Positions 37,873 to 58,955 of a stretch of DNA of 64,000 nucleotides are shown here, piece after piece; position 1 is the stretch's first letter; the number at the start of each line of letters is the position of its first letter. A program made the translations under genes and the position numbers. Below the pieces are notes generated by a model that saw only the letters and a program-made list of their open reading frames with translations, did not search any database and was not told the DNA's origin. The DNA is from Aggregatibacter aphrophilus ATCC 33389 (GTDB taxonomy: Bacteria; Pseudomonadota; Gammaproteobacteria; Enterobacterales; Pasteurellaceae): positions 558,001 through 622,000 of the forward strand of contig NZ_LR134327.1 of NCBI RefSeq assembly GCF_900636915.1, given 5' to 3'.

Positions 37873-38571
37873 ATGATGTGGCGTGCTAAATATGAAAAGT
37901 CACTGGCGATGCCCACCGGTTGGCAACAACTGCCAAATGGGTGCGCTTATTGTAACGCATTAAACGCTTATTTTGCCCCTTGGTTTACAAAAATTTGTGG
38001 TTATCAGATTCTGAAAATTGGCGGACTTAGCGCAGAAATTCAATGTGATTTGCCCTTGCGCCACCAAATTAGTCTCAGCGAAAAAATAACGGAAAATTTG
38101 ACCGCACTTTTAGACGATCATCATTCTGTTGTACAAGCCAAGCTCACCGAACTCCCCTTTATTCAACAGCAGTTGGATGCTTGTGTGCTGACTAACACGC
38201 TGAATTTTGTCCAAGATCCCCATCAAGTGTTGCGCGAAACCCACCGCGTTCTCACCGATGACGGCTATTTGTTCCTCAGTCTGTTTAATCCGTTTAACGG
38301 TCTATTTTTTAAATCAAAAACGGGAGACTTCCCTTCACGTCATTATTGCATTTGGCGGATCATTGATTGGTTGGAATTACTAAACTTTGATATTTTGGAA
38401 CAGCGGAATTTGGCGCTATCCCATCAAGCCGCCGGTTGGTTTGCCCCGTTAACGGTTATCGTGGCGCAAAAACGCACCTACCCGTTGACGCTTAATCCGC
38501 AAAAAGTGCGGTCAAAAATTCCGGCGTTTTTACAACTGGCAGAAGCGTTGAAACAAGCGGAAGATCTTTAG
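37873..38571 (+). CDS. yafS: YafS-like class I methyltransferase
   Basis: The 232-residue protein is a SAM-dependent methyltransferase of the YafS type. The fold is inferred from the central acidic strand LDACVLTNTLNFVQDPHQVLRE and the later GYLFLSLFNP strand. The glycine-rich SAM loop is degenerate (LKIGGLSAEIQ), so catalytic competence is uncertain. In E. coli yafS is also divergent from gloB. GGAG lies before the double ATG. Its target is unknown. Confidence 0.82.
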   Translation: MMWRAKYEKSLAMPTGWQQLPNGCAYCNALNAYFAPWFTKICGYQILKIGGLSAEIQCDLPLRHQISLSEKITENLTALLDDHHSVVQAKLTELPFIQQQLDACVLTNTLNFVQDPHQVLRETHRVLTDDGYLFLSLFNPFNGLFFKSKTGDFPSRHYCIWRIIDWLELLNFDILEQRNLALSHQAAGWFAPLTVIVAQKRTYPLTLNPQKVRSKIPAFLQLAEALKQAEDL

Positions 38572-38588
38572 TCTTTAAAGAAAAAAAT

Positions 38589-38620
38589 AACGGTCAGAAA
38601 TAAATTAATTTCTGACCGTT
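38589..38620. terminator. Bidirectional terminator between yafS and ptsG
   Basis: AACGGTCAGAAAT (38589-38601) and ATTTCTGACCGTT (38608-38620) form a perfect 13-base stem with a six-base loop between the two convergent genes. Confidence 0.8.
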
Positions 38621-38642
38621 CCTATTTGTAGTGAGGAAAAAA

Positions 38643-40136
38643 TTAATCTTCTTTACCTAGAATCTGGTTAATCTCGCTTTTATATAATACTGCTTTAGCC
38701 CCATAAACTGCTTGTACGCCACCACCAACTTCTAATACTTCAACGGCGCCTAACGCTTTTAAGCGTGGTTTATCCACTAATTTGACGTCTTTCACTGCCA
38801 CCCGTAAACGGGTAATGCAAGCATCCACGTTTTCAATATTTTCTGCACTACCTAGGGCGTTGATGATCTCGTGGGCGTTTTCCGTTAAAGAAGAGGTTTG
38901 CTGTTCCACGCTGTCTTCTTGCTCTTCTGCACGTCCCGGGGTCATCACATTAAATTGCGTAATTAAGAAACGGAAGCTGAAATAATACAACGCCGCCCAA
39001 CATACGCCGACCCAAATTACCGTAAACCAGTTGGTATTTTCATTGCCTTGCAAGATCCCAAACAACAGGAAGTCAATAAATCCACCGGAGAACGTGTTAC
39101 CGATGGAAATATTCAAAATGTCGGCAATATAGAAGGATACACCGTCTAAAAAGGCGTGGAAAACATACAACCAAGGTGCAACGAATAAGAACATAAATTC
39201 GATAGGCTCGGTGATCCCTGTAATAAAAGAGGTCAACGCCGCACCAAGGAATAACCCGCCAATGGTTTTACGACGCGCTTTCGGCACACAGTGATACATC
39301 GCCAAACAGGCTGCCGGCAAGCCGAACATCATGGTGTCAAAACGGCCTGCGAAGAAACGTGTACCTTCCGTAAATAAACCTTGGTGATTCGGATCCGCCA
39401 ATTGGGCAAAGAAGATTTTTTGCGCCCCGATAATGGTTTCACCATTCACGATTTCCGTACCGCCTAATTCGGTGTACCAAAATAAAGGATAAATCATGTG
39501 GTGTAAGCCTACTGCACCACATAAGCGCATGAGGAAGCCATAAAAGAATGTTCCGATTGCGCCCATAGAAGCAATATGTTCACCGGCAGACAACAACCAA
39601 TTTTGAAATGTCGGCCAAATTAAAAAGAAGATGGCGCCGACAAAAATCGCCGCAAAGGAGGTAACAATCGGCACAAAACGTGAACCGCCGAAAAAGCCTA
39701 AAATTTGAGGCAATTGAATATTATGATATTTATTGTGCAGTTTGACGGTAATCAACCCCATCACCAAAGCACCGATCACGCCCGTATCAATTCCTTTGGT
39801 TTCCGGTGAAAACAGCGGAATCAATGCTGCAATCGTACCGGTCATGATCAAATAGCCGACCGTTGCCGCTAACGCTGCAACCCCTTTATCCCGTTTGGCT
39901 AAACCAATGCCTAAACCTATACAAAGTAATAGTGCCAAATTACCGAACACCACCGAACCGGCAGCCGACATGATCTGAAAAATGCCTTGCAAAACAGGGT
40001 TATCCAACAAAGGATAGGCTTGCACGGTGGCCTTGTTGGATAAGGCACCGCCGATACCTAATAATAAACCGGCCGCCGGTAAAATGGCGATCGGCAACAT
40101 AAAAGCTTTACCTACTTGTTGAAGTTGTTTAAACAT
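38643..40136 (-). CDS. ptsG: PTS glucose-type transporter EIICB
   Basis: This protein imports and phosphorylates a hexose, most likely glucose, using phosphate from EIIA-Glc. The 497-residue product has an EIIC membrane domain (about 1-400, with GITEPIEF) and an EIIB domain with the phosphorylated Cys440 in DACITRLRV. The loop GGTEIVNGETIIGAQ and GTRFFAGRFDTMMFGLPAA resemble the Vibrio-type PtsG as I recall it, more than E. coli PtsG. Start 40136 is chosen because AGGAG lies six bases upstream; an in-frame GTG six codons earlier overlaps that site. Maltose or GlcNAc specificity cannot be excluded. Confidence 0.88.
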   Translation of the reverse strand: MFKQLQQVGKAFMLPIAILPAAGLLLGIGGALSNKATVQAYPLLDNPVLQGIFQIMSAAGSVVFGNLALLLCIGLGIGLAKRDKGVAALAATVGYLIMTGTIAALIPLFSPETKGIDTGVIGALVMGLITVKLHNKYHNIQLPQILGFFGGSRFVPIVTSFAAIFVGAIFFLIWPTFQNWLLSAGEHIASMGAIGTFFYGFLMRLCGAVGLHHMIYPLFWYTELGGTEIVNGETIIGAQKIFFAQLADPNHQGLFTEGTRFFAGRFDTMMFGLPAACLAMYHCVPKARRKTIGGLFLGAALTSFITGITEPIEFMFLFVAPWLYVFHAFLDGVSFYIADILNISIGNTFSGGFIDFLLFGILQGNENTNWFTVIWVGVCWAALYYFSFRFLITQFNVMTPGRAEEQEDSVEQQTSSLTENAHEIINALGSAENIENVDACITRLRVAVKDVKLVDKPRLKALGAVEVLEVGGGVQAVYGAKAVLYKSEINQILGKED

Positions 40137-40303
40137 AATTCGTCTCCTATTCACTATGTTTAACTGAAATCCATTTTCTTTTTTTATGGAGTTAATTTTC
40201 CATGTGCTAAATATTTTTAGAATACTACTTCAATATATAAACAAAAAACATGATTAAGATCTCGTTTTAACAAGAAAACTGACTGGACGTGATTAGTTAG
40301 GAC

Positions 40304-40334
40304 AAAAAAATCGGCATTCGAAAATGCCGATTTT
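40304..40334 (-). terminator. yegP terminator with UUCG loop
   Basis: AAAATCGGCATT (40307-40318) and AATGCCGATTTT (40323-40334) form a 12-base stem. On the minus strand the loop is TTCG, a very stable tetraloop, followed by seven T residues. Confidence 0.9.
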
Positions 40335-40349
40335 AGAAAAAAATACCAA

Positions 40350-40682
40350 TTAAGCTTCTTTGATTACCGTGGTAGAAGCATTGTTAATCACGGATTCAAT
40401 ACCTTTTTTAGTGGCAGCTTGGGAAGAATAATATTGGCCACGACCGATTTCCTGATGGTTGGCTGCTTTCAACACGAAATATGGTTGATCGCTTTTAGTG
40501 GTTCGAAGCTCAAAATTTTTCTCATCCACGCCATTTTTCTGCACTGAGGCAATGCCGTTTTGCGCAGAAGCTTTGGTTTTATAAAGCTCGCTGGTTAAAA
40601 TGATTTGTCCGTTAGTGGCGATCAAGTTGAACATAAATTGACCGTCTTTTGCTGTTTTTAATTCATAATGTCCTTGCGCCAT
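40350..40682 (-). CDS. yegP: YegP-family protein (two DUF1508 repeats)
   Basis: The 110-residue protein consists of two DUF1508 repeats (about 5-52 and 56-103), each of the form GxYxLKxAKDGQFxFNLxAxNGQxIxxSExYxxKxxAxxGIxSV. Family members are small cytosolic proteins of unknown function, the same length as E. coli YegP. AGGAGG-like CCTCCT complement lies just upstream. It is monocistronic, divergent from manA and bounded by a strong terminator. Confidence 0.92.
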   Translation of the reverse strand: MAQGHYELKTAKDGQFMFNLIATNGQIILTSELYKTKASAQNGIASVQKNGVDEKNFELRTTKSDQPYFVLKAANHQEIGRGQYYSSQAATKKGIESVINNASTTVIKEA

Positions 40683-54599: not shown

Positions 54600-55550
54600 A
54601 TGAACGAAATTGCCTTTAATCAAGAATTAATTGACGATATTTATTCTGCCAACGTACAAAACGACCTACACAGCATCAAAGATTTTCTACGCTGGACTTA
54701 CACTATTTTCAACCGTGCCGATATTTTCTACGGACATGGCTATGACAACCCTTGGGATGAAGCACAACAACTTGTGCTGGCAACCTTACACCTACCGCCG
54801 GATTTTCCAAGCGAATTGTACGATGCCCGTTTAACCATGGCGGAAAAATCAGAATTAATTCGTTTAGTCATGATTCGTTTGGAAAAACGCGTCCCTATTG
54901 CTTATTTAATTCATCGTGCGTGGTTCTGCGGTTTAGAATTTTATGTGGACGAGCGGGTCATCATTCCACGCTCACCGATTGGCGGTCTCATTCAACAGCG
55001 CTTTGCAGGACTCTTAAACTACGAACCAAAACGAATTTTAGACATGTGCACCGGTAGTGGTTGCATTGCCATCGCTTGCGCCGAACAATTCCCACAAGCT
55101 GATGTAGATGCGGTTGATTTGTCTATTGATGCGCTCAATGTGGCGGAAATGAATATCGAACGCCACAATCTGAACCACCGTGTTTTCCCGATTCAATCGA
55201 ATTTGTTCTCTCATTTATTGGAAGAACAATACGATCTCATCGTTGCTAACCCACCTTATGTCGACTTGGAAGATCTCTCCGATATGCCGGAAGAATTTCA
55301 TTATGAGCCGGAAATGGCACTTGGATCGGGCAATGACGGCTTAGACATAACTAAAGAAATTTTACGCATGGCTTCTAATTATCTCACCGACAACGGTCTA
55401 TTGATTTGCGAAGTTGGCAACAGCATGGTGCATTTAATGGAACAATACCCCGATGTACCATTCCATTGGTTGGATCTCCCTAATGGCGGCTTCGGCGTGT
55501 TTGCCCTCACCAAAGCAGAATTAATGGCACATCAAGCCGAATTTGCTTAA
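54600..55550 (+). CDS. prmB: Ribosomal protein uL3 glutamine methyltransferase PrmB
   Basis: PrmB methylates a glutamine of ribosomal protein L3. The 316-residue enzyme has an N-terminal recognition domain and a class I fold with the SAM motif [14 protein letters not shown] (about 145-158) and the catalytic NPPY (VANPPYVD). Length matches E. coli (310). GAGAAAATC precedes the ATG. It ends seven bases before a paired-USS hairpin that is duplicated 1.7 kb further on. Confidence 0.96.
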
Positions 55551-55557
55551 TTGACAA

Positions 55558-55606
55558 AAAAAGTGCGGTTAGTTTAAAAAACATTTTTCAAACTGACCGC
55601 ACTTTT
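55558..55606. repeat. Paired-USS terminator, repeat copy 1 flanking the cassette
   Basis: This 49-base hairpin follows prmB. It has USS arms AAAAAGTGCGGT and ACCGCACTTTT around the loop core AAAAAACATTTTTCAAA. It matches 57303-57350 except for two substitutions and one missing T. Its arms differ by one base from perfect pairing, and the perfect partner of its right arm is found in copy 2. Confidence 0.9.
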
Positions 55607-55681
55607 GTTTTAACTCATACGGGGAAGATATTCGCTTATATAAAAGAGTAAGTAACACCGGTCAAGGAGCAAAACCATCTC

Positions 55682-56296
55682 TTATCTTACGAAATATCTT
55701 AAAATTGTTTTCAATTTATCTTCCGAAGTTTTGTTTTTATTACTCAAGTATATTTCTCTATGAGAATCAGCACACCTAAACACGCCCAGTTCTTTGGTTA
55801 ATTTATCCATTTTTTCAAAGGAGGCAAGTTCAGTGTCATAACTCCCTATATGCAATATTTGAATTGCTTTACCACCATCTATACAGCCAAAACTTACTTT
55901 ATTATATAAGACGTTTGGCTTTTTCTTTTGGACATTTTCAAGTGCATTTAGAAAAATTTCTTGTGTAATAAAATCAGGTTGTTTAATCATAAGCGTATAT
56001 TTTAGCTTATCTTTATCTAACCCATCTTCGTCGGTTTTTTCCCAAATCCCCTCTAAAGGATACACTGTGAAATCTGTGATTTTATCGTCAGATTCATTCT
56101 TCATCATGGATTTAAATAACATCTTAATTGAATATGCAAGCGAATACAGCGTGGATATTCTATCTGAAAAATCCGCTTTATTAGGGTTACCTGCTCCCTG
56201 TATCATAATAAACTTTTGGCTTGGCACATCTACAAGCTCAGGTGTTTGTTTTATGCCATAAAGGTGTTTCTCGTTCTTTTTCCATTCATACTTCAT
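55682..56296 (-). CDS. GyrI-like small-molecule-binding protein
   Basis: The 204-residue protein matches the GyrI-like family (MKYEWKKNEKHLYGIKQTPELVDVPSQKFIMIQG start, GSYDTELASFEKMDKL in the second repeat), which binds small molecules and in some cases hydrolyses cyclic or toxic compounds. AGGAG lies nine bases before the ATG. It is the second gene of a pair with the WYL regulator, 63 bases apart. Codon use is markedly AT-rich with many AAA, TTT and ATA codons, unlike its neighbours. This pairing is familiar from low-GC Gram-positive bacteria, so transfer is likely. The ligand is unknown. Confidence 0.85.
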   Translation of the reverse strand: MKYEWKKNEKHLYGIKQTPELVDVPSQKFIMIQGAGNPNKADFSDRISTLYSLAYSIKMLFKSMMKNESDDKITDFTVYPLEGIWEKTDEDGLDKDKLKYTLMIKQPDFITQEIFLNALENVQKKKPNVLYNKVSFGCIDGGKAIQILHIGSYDTELASFEKMDKLTKELGVFRCADSHREIYLSNKNKTSEDKLKTILRYFVR

Positions 56297-56359
56297 TTTA
56301 GTTTTCTCCTATATAATTTCACAGGTTCCATTATACAGGGGAAAACTTGACACCATTTG

Positions 56360-57259
56360 TCATGTTTTATATTTATCCGCTATCTCATTTACCAGGTTTT
56401 TAATATGGAACCGAACCTCCTCCGGTTCTAGCACTTCTACATAATTTCCAAATGAAAATATATAGTTATATAACGTATCGCTATTAGGTATGTCTATTTC
56501 TGTATATAAATTTCCTTCATCATCCTTAGTAATATCTCCATTAAATTCATCATATACCCTAAAAGCAGCCCTACGATCAAACTTCACTTTTATTCGCACC
56601 ATATTGTCGGGCTTTATATCTTTTCTTAGTCTTATATCACCAAAATTTTCTTTAAAATGTAATAGTAGTATTTCTAAATTCTTAACTCTCGATAGCTTAA
56701 AATATCTGAAATCATTTCTCAGTAAACAAAAAGCGTACAAATACCAATCTTGACCTTTAAATAATAAGCGAGCAGGTTTTACCGTTCGACATGTTTTTTC
56801 TTGATTACTGCTAAAGTATGAAAAGGAAATGATATTTCTATTCAAAATAGCGAACTTTAAATCATTAAAAGTTTTTTCGTATGCCTCATTGTTTTGCCAA
56901 TTATTAAAATCAATCTCTATCCAATTTTGATTTTTCATTTTAAATAGCGCAGATAGCTTCGTTAACAGCTCTCCTTCATATAACTTACTTGTATGCTCCA
57001 GGCTCTGAAGTGCGGTCATTATTTGCTCTTTTTCATTTTGGGACAGTAAAGATTTGCTTAGAATAAATTCTTGAGCAACCTCTATTCCACCACCCTTTCC
57101 TTGAATAACATAAATTGGAATACCTGCACTGCTTATTGAGTCTATATCTCTATAAATCGTTCTTACTGATACTTCAAACCTATCTGCTAGTTCATTTGCA
57201 GTAGCTTTCCCCTTTTCTAATACGTAATACAGTATCCTAAACAATCTACTATCTTTCAT
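56360..57259 (-). CDS. WYL-domain transcription regulator (YafY/DeoR type)
   Basis: The 299-residue protein has an N-terminal winged helix-turn-helix (about 1-60, KATANELADRFEVSVRTIYRDID), a WYL ligand-sensing domain (about 140-215, with DWYLYAFCLLRNDFRYFKLSRV) and a C-terminal WCX-like region. It is the first gene of the pair and probably controls the GyrI-like gene, perhaps in response to nucleic-acid or small-molecule ligands. AGGG lies ten bases before 57259; an ATG three codons upstream abuts it. The gene is AT-rich and carries one USS near 57012, which could have been acquired after transfer or reflect a Pasteurellaceae donor. Confidence 0.88.
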   Translation of the reverse strand: MKDSRLFRILYYVLEKGKATANELADRFEVSVRTIYRDIDSISSAGIPIYVIQGKGGGIEVAQEFILSKSLLSQNEKEQIMTALQSLEHTSKLYEGELLTKLSALFKMKNQNWIEIDFNNWQNNEAYEKTFNDLKFAILNRNIISFSYFSSNQEKTCRTVKPARLLFKGQDWYLYAFCLLRNDFRYFKLSRVKNLEILLLHFKENFGDIRLRKDIKPDNMVRIKVKFDRRAAFRVYDEFNGDITKDDEGNLYTEIDIPNSDTLYNYIFSFGNYVEVLEPEEVRFHIKNLVNEIADKYKT

Positions 57260-57302
57260 GGCAATCATACCCTGCTAGTACAATCATTCTAGTCTGAGTA
57301 AT

Positions 57303-57350
57303 AAAAAGTGCGGTCAGTTAAAAAACATTTTTCAAACCGACCGCACTTTT
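57303..57350. repeat. Paired-USS terminator, repeat copy 2 flanking the cassette
   Basis: This 48-base hairpin ends on the first base of the dspB stop codon. It is near-identical to 55558-55606, including the unusual loop AAAAAACATTTTTCAAA that no other USS hairpin in the window has. It also serves as the dspB terminator. Confidence 0.9.
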
Positions 57351-58525
57351 TATTTAATCTCACTGTTCGTCTTTTGAATCACCGCCTCCAGTAAGCCTTT
57401 TGTATTTTTCTGAATGGCTTCACTTTTCAAGGCCTTGACATCTTCTCCCCAAATAGACAAAGCCGCGCCGGCAATTTTATGGGTATCTTGTGCTTTATTT
57501 TCCGTATTTTGTCCATCCCAAACACTAAGATCCCAATGATTTAAGACGTCTTTTTGAGCAAAGCTCGCATCATGCGAAAGCGTTGAAGAGGTTTTAGGAT
57601 TTATATAAAGATAATAAGAATTATAATTTAAAACAGTAAAACCTTTTTCGACTAATTCCGGCAGACTCACCCGCAGATGACGACGTCGATTTGCCTCGCC
57701 TTCATCTTCCGTATCACCATCATAACTCCAGTAGGTAATTTCAATATTAGGATTTAATTGATCGACGGTATTTTTAATTAAACCATCATTCCAAATTCGG
57801 GTTTTTAATCCTTTTTCTCTTAAAAAATCAGCTAATTTATTGGCATAGGCAATAAATTCATGATTACTATTTTCATCATAACCAAACTCATCACCACCAA
57901 TATGAAAATGCTTAGTACTGTCACCAAAAATATGAATAACTTCAGCCAACAAAGATTGCATAAACTCAATACTGTCCGGATTGGTAATGCTAATTTCGTC
58001 ATCATTTTGTGGTGATTTTAAAGATTGAAGATAGGCTTCCCCCTTTTCTTGTTTTAATAACGTAAAAATCGCCGTCATGTGATTCGGGCTATCCAGTTCG
58101 GGAATAAGCTCAATGCCTTTTGATTTTGCATATGCTTTAATGTCATCAAGCTGTTGATAGCTCAAGAAGGGTTTATTGGTGTAAGGATTAATATAAATTC
58201 CGCTTTTATCTTGAATCGCATTTTCCACACGCTGATTCAGCAACCGACTTTCTAAAGCATAATTTTCGTGATCGGAAAAATGTAAATGCAGAAATGTCCC
58301 GCCCGACTGGCTAATAGTATCAATAAAAGATTTAATAACTTCAGGCGGATAAAAGTGCCTTGCAATATCCAGCATTAATCCGCTTTCCTTTAAAGTTGTT
58401 TTTTGCACTGTTGGCGAATTTATATTGGAATTATCAGAAGACATCTTTACATCGGCAAGACTATTTAACGGGTTCAACAAAAGCAAAGATGGAAGTAAAA
58501 AGATAGTTTTTTTTATATTTTTCAT
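57350..58525 (-). CDS. dspB: Dispersin B homologue, beta-1,6-N-acetylglucosaminidase (GH20)
   Basis: Dispersin B is a secreted glycoside hydrolase family 20 enzyme that cuts poly-beta-1,6-N-acetylglucosamine (PNAG) and releases cells from biofilm. The 391-residue protein has a signal peptide (about 1-24) and a catalytic barrel from residue 48 (SGLMLDIARHFYPPEVIK). The catalytic Asp212-Glu213 pair lies in HIGGDEFGY, with the substrate tryptophans in YWSYDGD and SIWGED. The core matches A. actinomycetemcomitans dispersin B closely by memory, but the first 47 residues do not. ATG 58525 has GAGG five bases upstream; a 12-codon extension is rejected. No pga operon is in the window. Confidence 0.94.
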   Translation of the reverse strand: MKNIKKTIFLLPSLLLLNPLNSLADVKMSSDNSNINSPTVQKTTLKESGLMLDIARHFYPPEVIKSFIDTISQSGGTFLHLHFSDHENYALESRLLNQRVENAIQDKSGIYINPYTNKPFLSYQQLDDIKAYAKSKGIELIPELDSPNHMTAIFTLLKQEKGEAYLQSLKSPQNDDEISITNPDSIEFMQSLLAEVIHIFGDSTKHFHIGGDEFGYDENSNHEFIAYANKLADFLREKGLKTRIWNDGLIKNTVDQLNPNIEITYWSYDGDTEDEGEANRRRHLRVSLPELVEKGFTVLNYNSYYLYINPKTSSTLSHDASFAQKDVLNHWDLSVWDGQNTENKAQDTHKIAGAALSIWGEDVKALKSEAIQKNTKGLLEAVIQKTNSEIK

Positions 58526-58913
58526 AAAAGCCTCAAAAAAGGAAAGAATGCAATAAAACACCTTAATTTTTCACCGCACTTTAATCTATTTTAATATTAT
58601 TTAAGTGACATAAAAAACTGATTTATTAAATAATGGCTACATAGCAGACTTGCAAGTAGTCGCTTCACACTGTCTCTAAAAAAAGACCACCTTAGATAAG
58701 ACAAAAGAATCACCAAAATGTTGATATTTTTTCATTGCGTGAGATGAGAGTCGCACTTATCCTCCCTCAAAAATATTGAAAATCTACTGCTAACGTCCCT
58801 TCACGCACAAACAACTCATCATACATAAAATAAAAATTCATTGTGTTATCAACGCACTATAAATAAATCACATAAAAGCCACCGTGCATTGTATAATACC
58901 GCCAATTTTCAAT
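58526..58913. other. AT-rich gap between dspB and the queuosine leader
   Basis: No convincing gene lies here. A single unpaired USS (58573-58581) sits beside the dspB start. The remainder must hold the dspB promoter on the minus strand and the queuosine-operon promoter (TATAAT at 58892-58897), both with poor -35 elements. Confidence 0.5.
58892..58897 (+). promoter_or_regulatory. -10 element of the queuosine operon
   Basis: A perfect TATAAT lies 18 bases before the preQ1 aptamer. The -35 is weak (TCACAT or similar). Confidence 0.5.
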
Positions 58914-58949
58914 TTGTAGTTCGCAAACCTCCTACATAAAAAAACTAGG
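58914..58949 (+). promoter_or_regulatory. preQ1-I riboswitch aptamer
   Basis: The stretch has the class I preQ1 pattern: stem TGTAG (58915-58919) with CTACA (58932-58936), loop TTCGCAAACCTC carrying the conserved TTC and ACC, and the A-rich tail TAAAAAAACTAGG. Loop ACCT can pair with tail AGGT, closing the pseudoknot and hiding the AGG that would act as ribosome site. Downstream queDE make the preQ1 precursor, which fits feedback control by translation. Confidence 0.85.
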
Positions 58950-58955
58950 TATCAC

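Follow-up and report, generated by a model that had tools for sequence, protein, structure and literature searches.

Closest described systems

In the available text on the minimal mobile element of Neisseria (PMC3898611), whole-gene content varies between conserved genes, a recombinase gene is lacking and the host carries uptake signals. The paired USS terminators of the Pasteurellaceae are described in the accessible part of Kingsford et al. 2007 (PMC1852404) as inverted cores at gene ends with stable stems and T tails. On the protein side, Lin2189 is a GyrI-like protein that hydrolyses yatakemycin; in enzymes of this type E157 and E185 are essential, and W85 and Y187 are important (available part of PMC5684135). 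The WYL regulators of genotoxic stress SiwR and PafBC combine an HTH with a WYL domain and have a palindrome near the controlled gene, and a mycobacterial WYL regulator responds to genotoxic stress and controls DinB-superfamily genes (available part of PMC10693628).

The prmB-dspB junction of Aggregatibacter aphrophilus ATCC 33389 (genome G000) resembles each of these systems in part. As in a minimal mobile element, a cassette of whole genes lies between two conserved genes in one genome (G000) and is missing from that place in another (G003), no recombinase was found among the cassette ORFs of at least 60 aa, and the flanks are diverged as allelic exchange would leave them. In contrast to the element as far as PMC3898611 was available, the boundaries here fall at paired USS terminators, with one in the empty site, and recombination is here a proposal from sequence comparison. 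The hairpins have the inverted cores, stems and T tails of the paired USS terminators, but two of them bracket an insert; in the accessible part of PMC1852404 the string 'duplicat' occurs 0 times. The GyrI-like protein agrees with the cyclopropanoid hydrolases of the Lin2189 type in domain, length and key residues (PMC5684135, in the part available). The regulator shares the HTH plus WYL build and the nearby palindrome with SiwR and PafBC, whereas its partner gene here is GyrI-like (PMC10693628, likewise in part). A literature search of titles and abstract beginnings, with subscription papers outside its scope, returned no USS-hairpin-bounded cassettes, which leaves their absence unproven. The available part of a study on A. 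actinomycetemcomitans genomic islands (PMC9506275) does not mention the prmB-dspB locus.

Organization of the prmB-dspB locus

The window is the whole analysed stretch of 64,000 nucleotides (G000:C1:558001-622000) in a 2.34-Mb single-contig genome. It was compared with a genus sample of nine Aggregatibacter genomes (G000-G008), which includes G000 itself and A. kilianii as G006. The features of the junction are, in window coordinates:

54600..55550, plus strand: prmB, 50S ribosomal protein L3 glutamine methyltransferase (TIGR03533, 432.5 bits, cut-off 229.7)
55558..55606, no strand: USS hairpin 1, with two inverted AAGTGCGGT cores, starting 7 bases past the prmB stop
55682..56296, minus strand: gyrI, encoding a GyrI-like relative of Lin2189, a cyclopropanoid hydrolase (PF06445; PDB 3b49, 5x5m, 5x5r)
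56330..56335, minus strand: TATAAT 5' of gyrI, a likely -10 box judged from the sequence only (the consensus scan did not report TATAAT)
56348..56362, no strand: perfect dyad TGACA-N5-TGTCA overlapping the wyl stop, a likely (predicted) WYL operator
56360..57268, minus strand: wyl, an HTH_11-WYL-WCX transcription regulator (PF13280, PF08279 and PF25583 above cut-off)
57303..57350, no strand: USS hairpin 2, the arms of which match the single hairpin of G003
57350..58525, minus strand: dspB, family 20 glycosyl hydrolase (PF00728)

prmB and dspB are convergent, with wyl and gyrI between them and a hairpin on either side of the pair. The prmB stop codon occupies 55548-55550, and hairpin 2 overlaps the dspB stop codon (57350-57352, minus strand) by one base, the first on the plus strand. 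An earlier note on this DNA had placed the hairpins, the 7-base gap and the one-base overlap correctly. prmB was matched in 61 of 61 genomes searched; dspB, the product of which we take to be dispersin B, was matched in six of the nine genus genomes. The G+C content is 31.6% in wyl and 32.5% in gyrI, against 43.9% in prmB.

The plasmid search with the locus gave no match. In the defence-library search WYL models alone were matched, and none for GyrI. The promoter and terminator scan of the region, which has a loop limit of 8, reported 0 terminators and was uninformative on promoters too. Near the locus, the RNA-family search found only a PreQ1 riboswitch (window 58910-58954, 40.7 bits), located before two genes that we take to be queD and queE.

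Two near-identical USS hairpins

Hairpins 1 and 2 are near-identical, as had been noticed before: their inner 26 and 25 bases, respectively, are 3 edits apart. They have a loop 17-mer in common that is absent elsewhere in G000, and its sole other copy in the nine genus genomes sits, inverted, in the prmB-dspB hairpin of G003. Among the G000 hairpins of 42-46 nt (n=11), they form the only one of 55 pairs within 3 edits. Over mixed lengths the pair ranks 7th of 3486, these pairs being drawn from 84 of the 122 G000 hairpins (101 listed, minus 17 short ones). In relatives, close pairs within the 42-46-nt class are frequent: 41 of 253 fall within 3 edits in G004, 26 of 136 in G008 and 15 of 120 in G007, but not in G003 (2 of 28, from 8 of its 9 hairpins). 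Three hairpins of G004 are identical save for loop inversion, and a core of an A-run, C-G or C-A, and a T-run is common to many 42-46-nt hairpins across the genus. Since near-identical hairpins are this frequent in relatives, the resemblance is by itself weak evidence, and the case for an event rests on the empty site in G003. The earlier idea of a loop special to the pair holds in G000, where it is unique, but nearly fails in the relatives with their many similar hairpins.

Both hairpins have two inverted USS cores close together, a stable stem and a T tail, and their RNA folds beat all shuffles on either strand (z -6.1 to -10.7). Hairpin 1 is likely prmB's own bidirectional terminator and hairpin 2 is likely dspB's own terminator, both as predictions. 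A USS hairpin lies at most 30 bases past prmB in six of the seven congeners other than G003, the exception being G001; these hairpins vary in length, and three have one core mismatch. The tail of hairpin 1, TTTTGTTT, is also found in the prmB terminators of G006, G007 and G008, and occurs in 3 of the 102 tails of the G000/G003 sample with hairpin 1 counted. The right flanks of hairpins 1 and 2 are alike, against a background of 2.9%. When G.U pairs are allowed, hairpin 1 is fully paired only as prmB RNA, and hairpin 2 only as dspB RNA.

A separate observation concerns the mrp terminator of G000 (L165), in which both USS cores are altered in matching fashion (AAGAGCGGT and ACCGCTCTT). The stem is retained and the uptake motif is gone, as expected if selection acts on termination.

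An empty site in the closest congener

G003 is the closest congener of G000 (PrmB 96% identical), and it proved to be the single-hairpin, cassette-free relative that the earlier note had sought at this junction. Its order is prmB, one hairpin, dspB, and its genome has no match to WYL or GyrI at E 0.001. The left flank of the G003 hairpin is that of the prmB side and the right flank that of the dspB side. Its loop is turned relative to both G000 copies, and it already has the mismatch of copy 2, which makes the "one perfect ancestor" once proposed for the two copies needless.

Divergence between G000 and G003 is raised on both sides of the cassette. In prmB, 14 differences fall in the first 630 columns (2.2%) and 22 in the last 325 (6.8%). 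dspB differs at 77 of 1176 positions (6.5%) and the dspB-queD spacer at 70 of 531 (13%), while queD-queE differs at 20 of 1058 (1.9%), yccS by 3.1% and smrB by 1.6%. The dS is 0.25 for dspB, compared to 0.03-0.10 for yccS, smrB and prmB. At the junction-side end of dspB, 30 codons differ at 1 of 90 bases and the preceding 30 codons at 8; with this end near-unchanged, the diverged tract is patchy. Such divergence to the left and right of the cassette suggests replacement of the entire junction by transformation, in either direction and without hairpins being required. It is an indication only, as rapid evolution of dspB and the freedom of a non-coding spacer to change could also raise it.

The explanation that we prefer, tentatively and with a little less than even confidence, has several parts. 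prmB and dspB would each have a private USS terminator (hairpin 1 and hairpin 2, respectively), and a Firmicutes-derived WYL and GyrI pair would move together with dspB, the block being dspB-hairpin-WYL-GyrI. The segment from the prmB 3' end to dspB would have been exchanged whole by transformation with a relative's version, in the manner of a minimal mobile element and with either G000 or G003 as the recipient. The USS of the terminators would help DNA uptake, yet need not be crossover points. WYL would sense DNA damage and control gyrI via the dyad before it, and GyrI would open cyclopropane-type DNA-alkylating toxins. The anatomy, empty site, relatives, diverged tract and conserved residues are observed, and from them we infer the swap, the regulation and the enzyme activity.

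The single hairpin of G003 may also be read as a loss, in which the block with its two hairpins was present in an ancestor of G000 and G003, and recombination between the hairpins removed the cassette from G003. A hairpin that combines the prmB-side left flank with the dspB-side right flank agrees with it, as does the old dspB linkage (see below). However, the G003 loop is inverted with respect to both copies, and the raised flank divergence would be left unexplained; we regard such a deletion as rather unlikely.

Two further differences between these genomes lie elsewhere. The 43-kb segment G000:C1:548377-591739 (window 1-33739) has no counterpart at that place in G003, and window 38571-40373 comprises 1.8 kb in G000 versus 0.12 kb in G003.

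Relatives, origin and age of the cassette

Some WYL match was found in 41 of 140 family genomes, but full-length matches at 60% or more only in G000, G006 and G130, which are also the only genomes of the 140 with GyrI matches. In the WYL tree of 23 rows (6 loci and 17 of 120 listed proteins), G000 and G006 are sisters (100/99) on a long stem nested in the Bacillota, and G130 groups elsewhere. A foreign origin of the cassette, which looks taken over from oral Firmicutes, is supported by this placement; together with the G+C values it bears out the earlier description of the cassette as foreign and AT-rich. Oral Pasteurellaceae appear to have received the WYL-GyrI module from Firmicutes on two occasions or more, in Aggregatibacter and in G130. 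In G130, from a different genus, DUF1706 (ClbS/DfsB family) and radical SAM genes come after WYL and GyrI, with MobC- and relaxase-like genes near the cassette. The same four genes are present in E. yurii, and the first three in a Peptostreptococcaceae MAG. At the G000 and G006 loci themselves, the DUF1706 and radical SAM genes are absent after GyrI. With clusters at 95-99% set aside, which are presumably the species itself, the closest WYL relative among the best 120 of 6349 is that of A. kilianii (80%), and the closest GyrI relative among the best 120 of 5256 is on a 902-base contig (85%).

The order in A. kilianii is ndk, dspB, WYL, GyrI, mrp, which puts WYL-GyrI behind dspB at two chromosomal places, one in G000 and one in G006. 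A half USS hairpin lies at the dspB stop in G006, followed by a G+C-rich repeat, the cassette, another repeat, a full hairpin and mrp. The cargo between dspB and mrp varies between species: besides the cassette in G006, G004 holds some 6 kb that include one VgrG-like gene and a pair of ankyrin-repeat genes (L112 3742-8787). G007 and G008 have ndk, dspB, one hairpin and mrp, and G002 and G005 have ndk, a hairpin and mrp, with dspB missing.

Between G000 and G006, the dS of wyl and gyrI is 1.20 (12 joint bootstraps, 0.84-1.52), next to 1.53 for prmB, 1.20 for yccS, 0.95 for smrB and 2.01 for dspB. On this estimate the two Aggregatibacter cassettes parted about when their species did, and a cassette dS of 1.2 means that the dspB linkage, unless coincidental, predates the G000-G003 split. 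The base composition adds a complication. GC3 in G006 is 24-26% in the cassette versus 56% in its own dspB, and the synonymous differences of the G006 cassette show no lean to GC (42:53); the same count gives 86:16 in dspB, 76:22 in prmB, 128:60 in yccS and 33:17 in smrB. As the G006 cassette is un-ameliorated, the cassettes were not resident in both genomes throughout, and at least one transfer must have come later. We read this as at least two probable arrivals of one dspB-linked cassette lineage.

The missing amelioration in G006 would also suit separate arrivals from unsampled AT-rich donors, with the cassettes settling beside dspB by chance or through a preference for hairpins and no old block involved. 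The full pair occurs in just 3 of the 140 family genomes, in G130 near relaxase genes, which points the same way. Yet the WYL pair is monophyletic, and apart from the 95-99% clusters nothing closer than the 80% (WYL) and 85% (GyrI) relatives was found among the best 120 of each search, so that separate arrivals appear improbable.

Hairpin junctions elsewhere in the genus

Another junction, between two genes that we take from their sequence to be dusA and asnA, has one 44-nt hairpin in G000, G003, G007 and G008. In G004 it has two hairpins around 296 bp of repeats, and these are one edit apart once the loop is turned, plus one USS mismatch. In G002 and G005 a half hairpin is followed by a short insert and then a full hairpin; in G006 there is only a half hairpin and in G001 one degenerate hairpin, with other sequence beside both. 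The simple reading is a gain in G004, and the step from a single to a double hairpin shows that the paired-hairpin architecture can arise by insertion.

The frequency of this architecture was surveyed in two ways. When 384 kb of G000 and 378 kb of G003 were compared, only 78.6 kb aligned, in 13 HSPs with a minimum length of 300 bases. Of the 12 differences between them, five show a USS hairpin no more than 120 bp from a boundary in one genome or the other, and the focal locus alone has hairpins at both ends; with 78.6 kb alignable, this is weak as a wide test of hairpin-bounded cargo. The second survey, round 42-46-nt hairpins, covered 53 regions (17 of 17 hairpins in G008, 16 of 16 in G007 and 20 of 23 in G004), which gave 36 orthologous region pairs. 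By our reading, nine junctions in these three genomes break at most 60 bases from a hairpin: dusA-asnA has near-identical hairpins on both sides, and L211 has hairpins of two lengths. Other region pairs break farther off (e.g. L183/L201 and L190/L212), and the insert of L182/L205 has a dispersed G+C-rich repeat at its boundaries in place of hairpins. Because the regions were picked round hairpins, enrichment cannot be judged from these counts. Paired near-identical hairpins stand at 2 of the 21 junction differences read, the focal locus and dusA-asnA. USS hairpins as a general loading route, an idea of the earlier note, gain an example in dusA-asnA but would be a rare one.

For the focal locus, the earlier note had proposed that one hairpin shared by prmB and dspB was ancestral and that USS-hairpin recombination brought the cassette into the G000 lineage, leaving two copies. 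The single hairpin in G003, the rank of the two hairpins as the closest pair in G000 (in their length class), the nearly unchanged junction end of dspB, and the same architecture with clear polarity at dusA-asnA all agree with such an insertion. It is nevertheless unlikely in our view: the dspB-WYL-GyrI order also exists elsewhere in A. kilianii, the cassettes are old by dS, and the prmB 3' end and dspB show elevated divergence as well. Moreover, prmB has hairpins of its own in relatives, the tail of hairpin 1 resembles their prmB terminators, and the RNA pairing ties each hairpin to its own gene. The design is also absent at 11 of the 12 and 8 of the 9 differences, one of the 8 having two hairpins of unequal length. 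As a whole, the earlier interpretation is partly supported.

In a broader form, the hairpins might serve as landing pads: two-hairpin donor DNA would recombine with a single resident hairpin in a transformable relative and so load cargo at gene ends, and the reverse would unload it. Both neighbours would keep a terminator, and a single sequence of some 44 bases would serve as uptake tag, homology and terminator. The best support comes from dusA-asnA in G004, and the focal locus fits the idea without requiring it; for the time being we consider it distinctly doubtful.

Some related observations were made during these comparisons. The near-identical hairpins at 1013476 and 1019415 of G000 were rejected as a further pair, as they lie inside a tandem duplication and so have another cause. 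The duplicated region (G000:C1:1008000-1021000, L121) holds genes for DUF4123, an alpha/beta hydrolase and further genes with similar USS hairpins. At L188 1930-2080 (G008) and L226 1925-2080 (G007), a second hairpin-like sequence follows right behind a USS hairpin. It has TTCAGACGGC, the same in G007, and G008 reads TTCAGGCGGC. We take TTCAGACGGC to be the Neisseria uptake sequence, and both places look as if Neisseria DNA was joined at the USS terminator.

At G003:C2:61271-61412, a 56-nt USS hairpin is interrupted by a 141-bp inverted-repeat, MITE-like element, at whose ends some 14 bases are repeated; the intact site is G000:C1:535711-535766. USS hairpins can thus take insertions, and a transposon-like insertion of the cassette with a long target duplication at the hairpins could be imagined. 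The cassette ORFs of at least 60 aa are without a recombinase, though, and to our knowledge an exact duplication of a 48-49-base hairpin is atypical of transposases, so that this route is hardly credible.

The whole-junction exchange that we prefer has its own difficulties. In G000 no hairpin pair of the 42-46-nt class other than the focal one lies within 3 edits; the right flanks of the two are alike and their loops are turned relative to G003, as duplication gives. The patchy tract, a possibly fast dspB, the un-ameliorated cassette of G006 and the clear two-hairpin gain at dusA-asnA count against it as well.

Predicted function of GyrI and WYL

The GyrI protein matches PF06445 with 59.7 bits (cut-off 26) and aligns with Lin2189 over nearly its whole length (E 7.4e-36). 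Its residues E156, E181, W85 and Y183 are invariant in 26 sequences and match E157, E185, W85 and Y187 of Lin2189; the W85 pairing is that of HMMER, whereas MAFFT puts a gap there. The aromatic cage is incomplete compared to Lin2189 in the available part of PMC5684135, with W99 replaced by L and Y46 by F.

The WYL protein (PF08279, PF13280 and PF25583) has the HTH plus WYL build. The TGACA-N5-TGTCA dyad lies behind wyl in five of the six loci compared, and E. yurii has a variant. The DinB-superfamily targets of the mycobacterial WYL regulator fit the ClbS-family (DUF1706) gene that accompanies the relatives of the cassette in E. yurii, G130 and the MAG. From this, the cassette probably pairs a damage-responsive regulator with a cyclopropanoid hydrolase, and our best guess is a damage-induced protection module against DNA-alkylating toxins.

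Implications

The prmB-dspB junction is a site of gene gain or loss in these bacteria. If the exchange at hairpins is real, a transformable species can add genes at gene ends with transcription unbroken, and uptake signals would gain a second role. Even with private terminators, the junction offers a clean presence/absence locus at which allelic exchange, loss and hairpin-guided insertion may be told apart.
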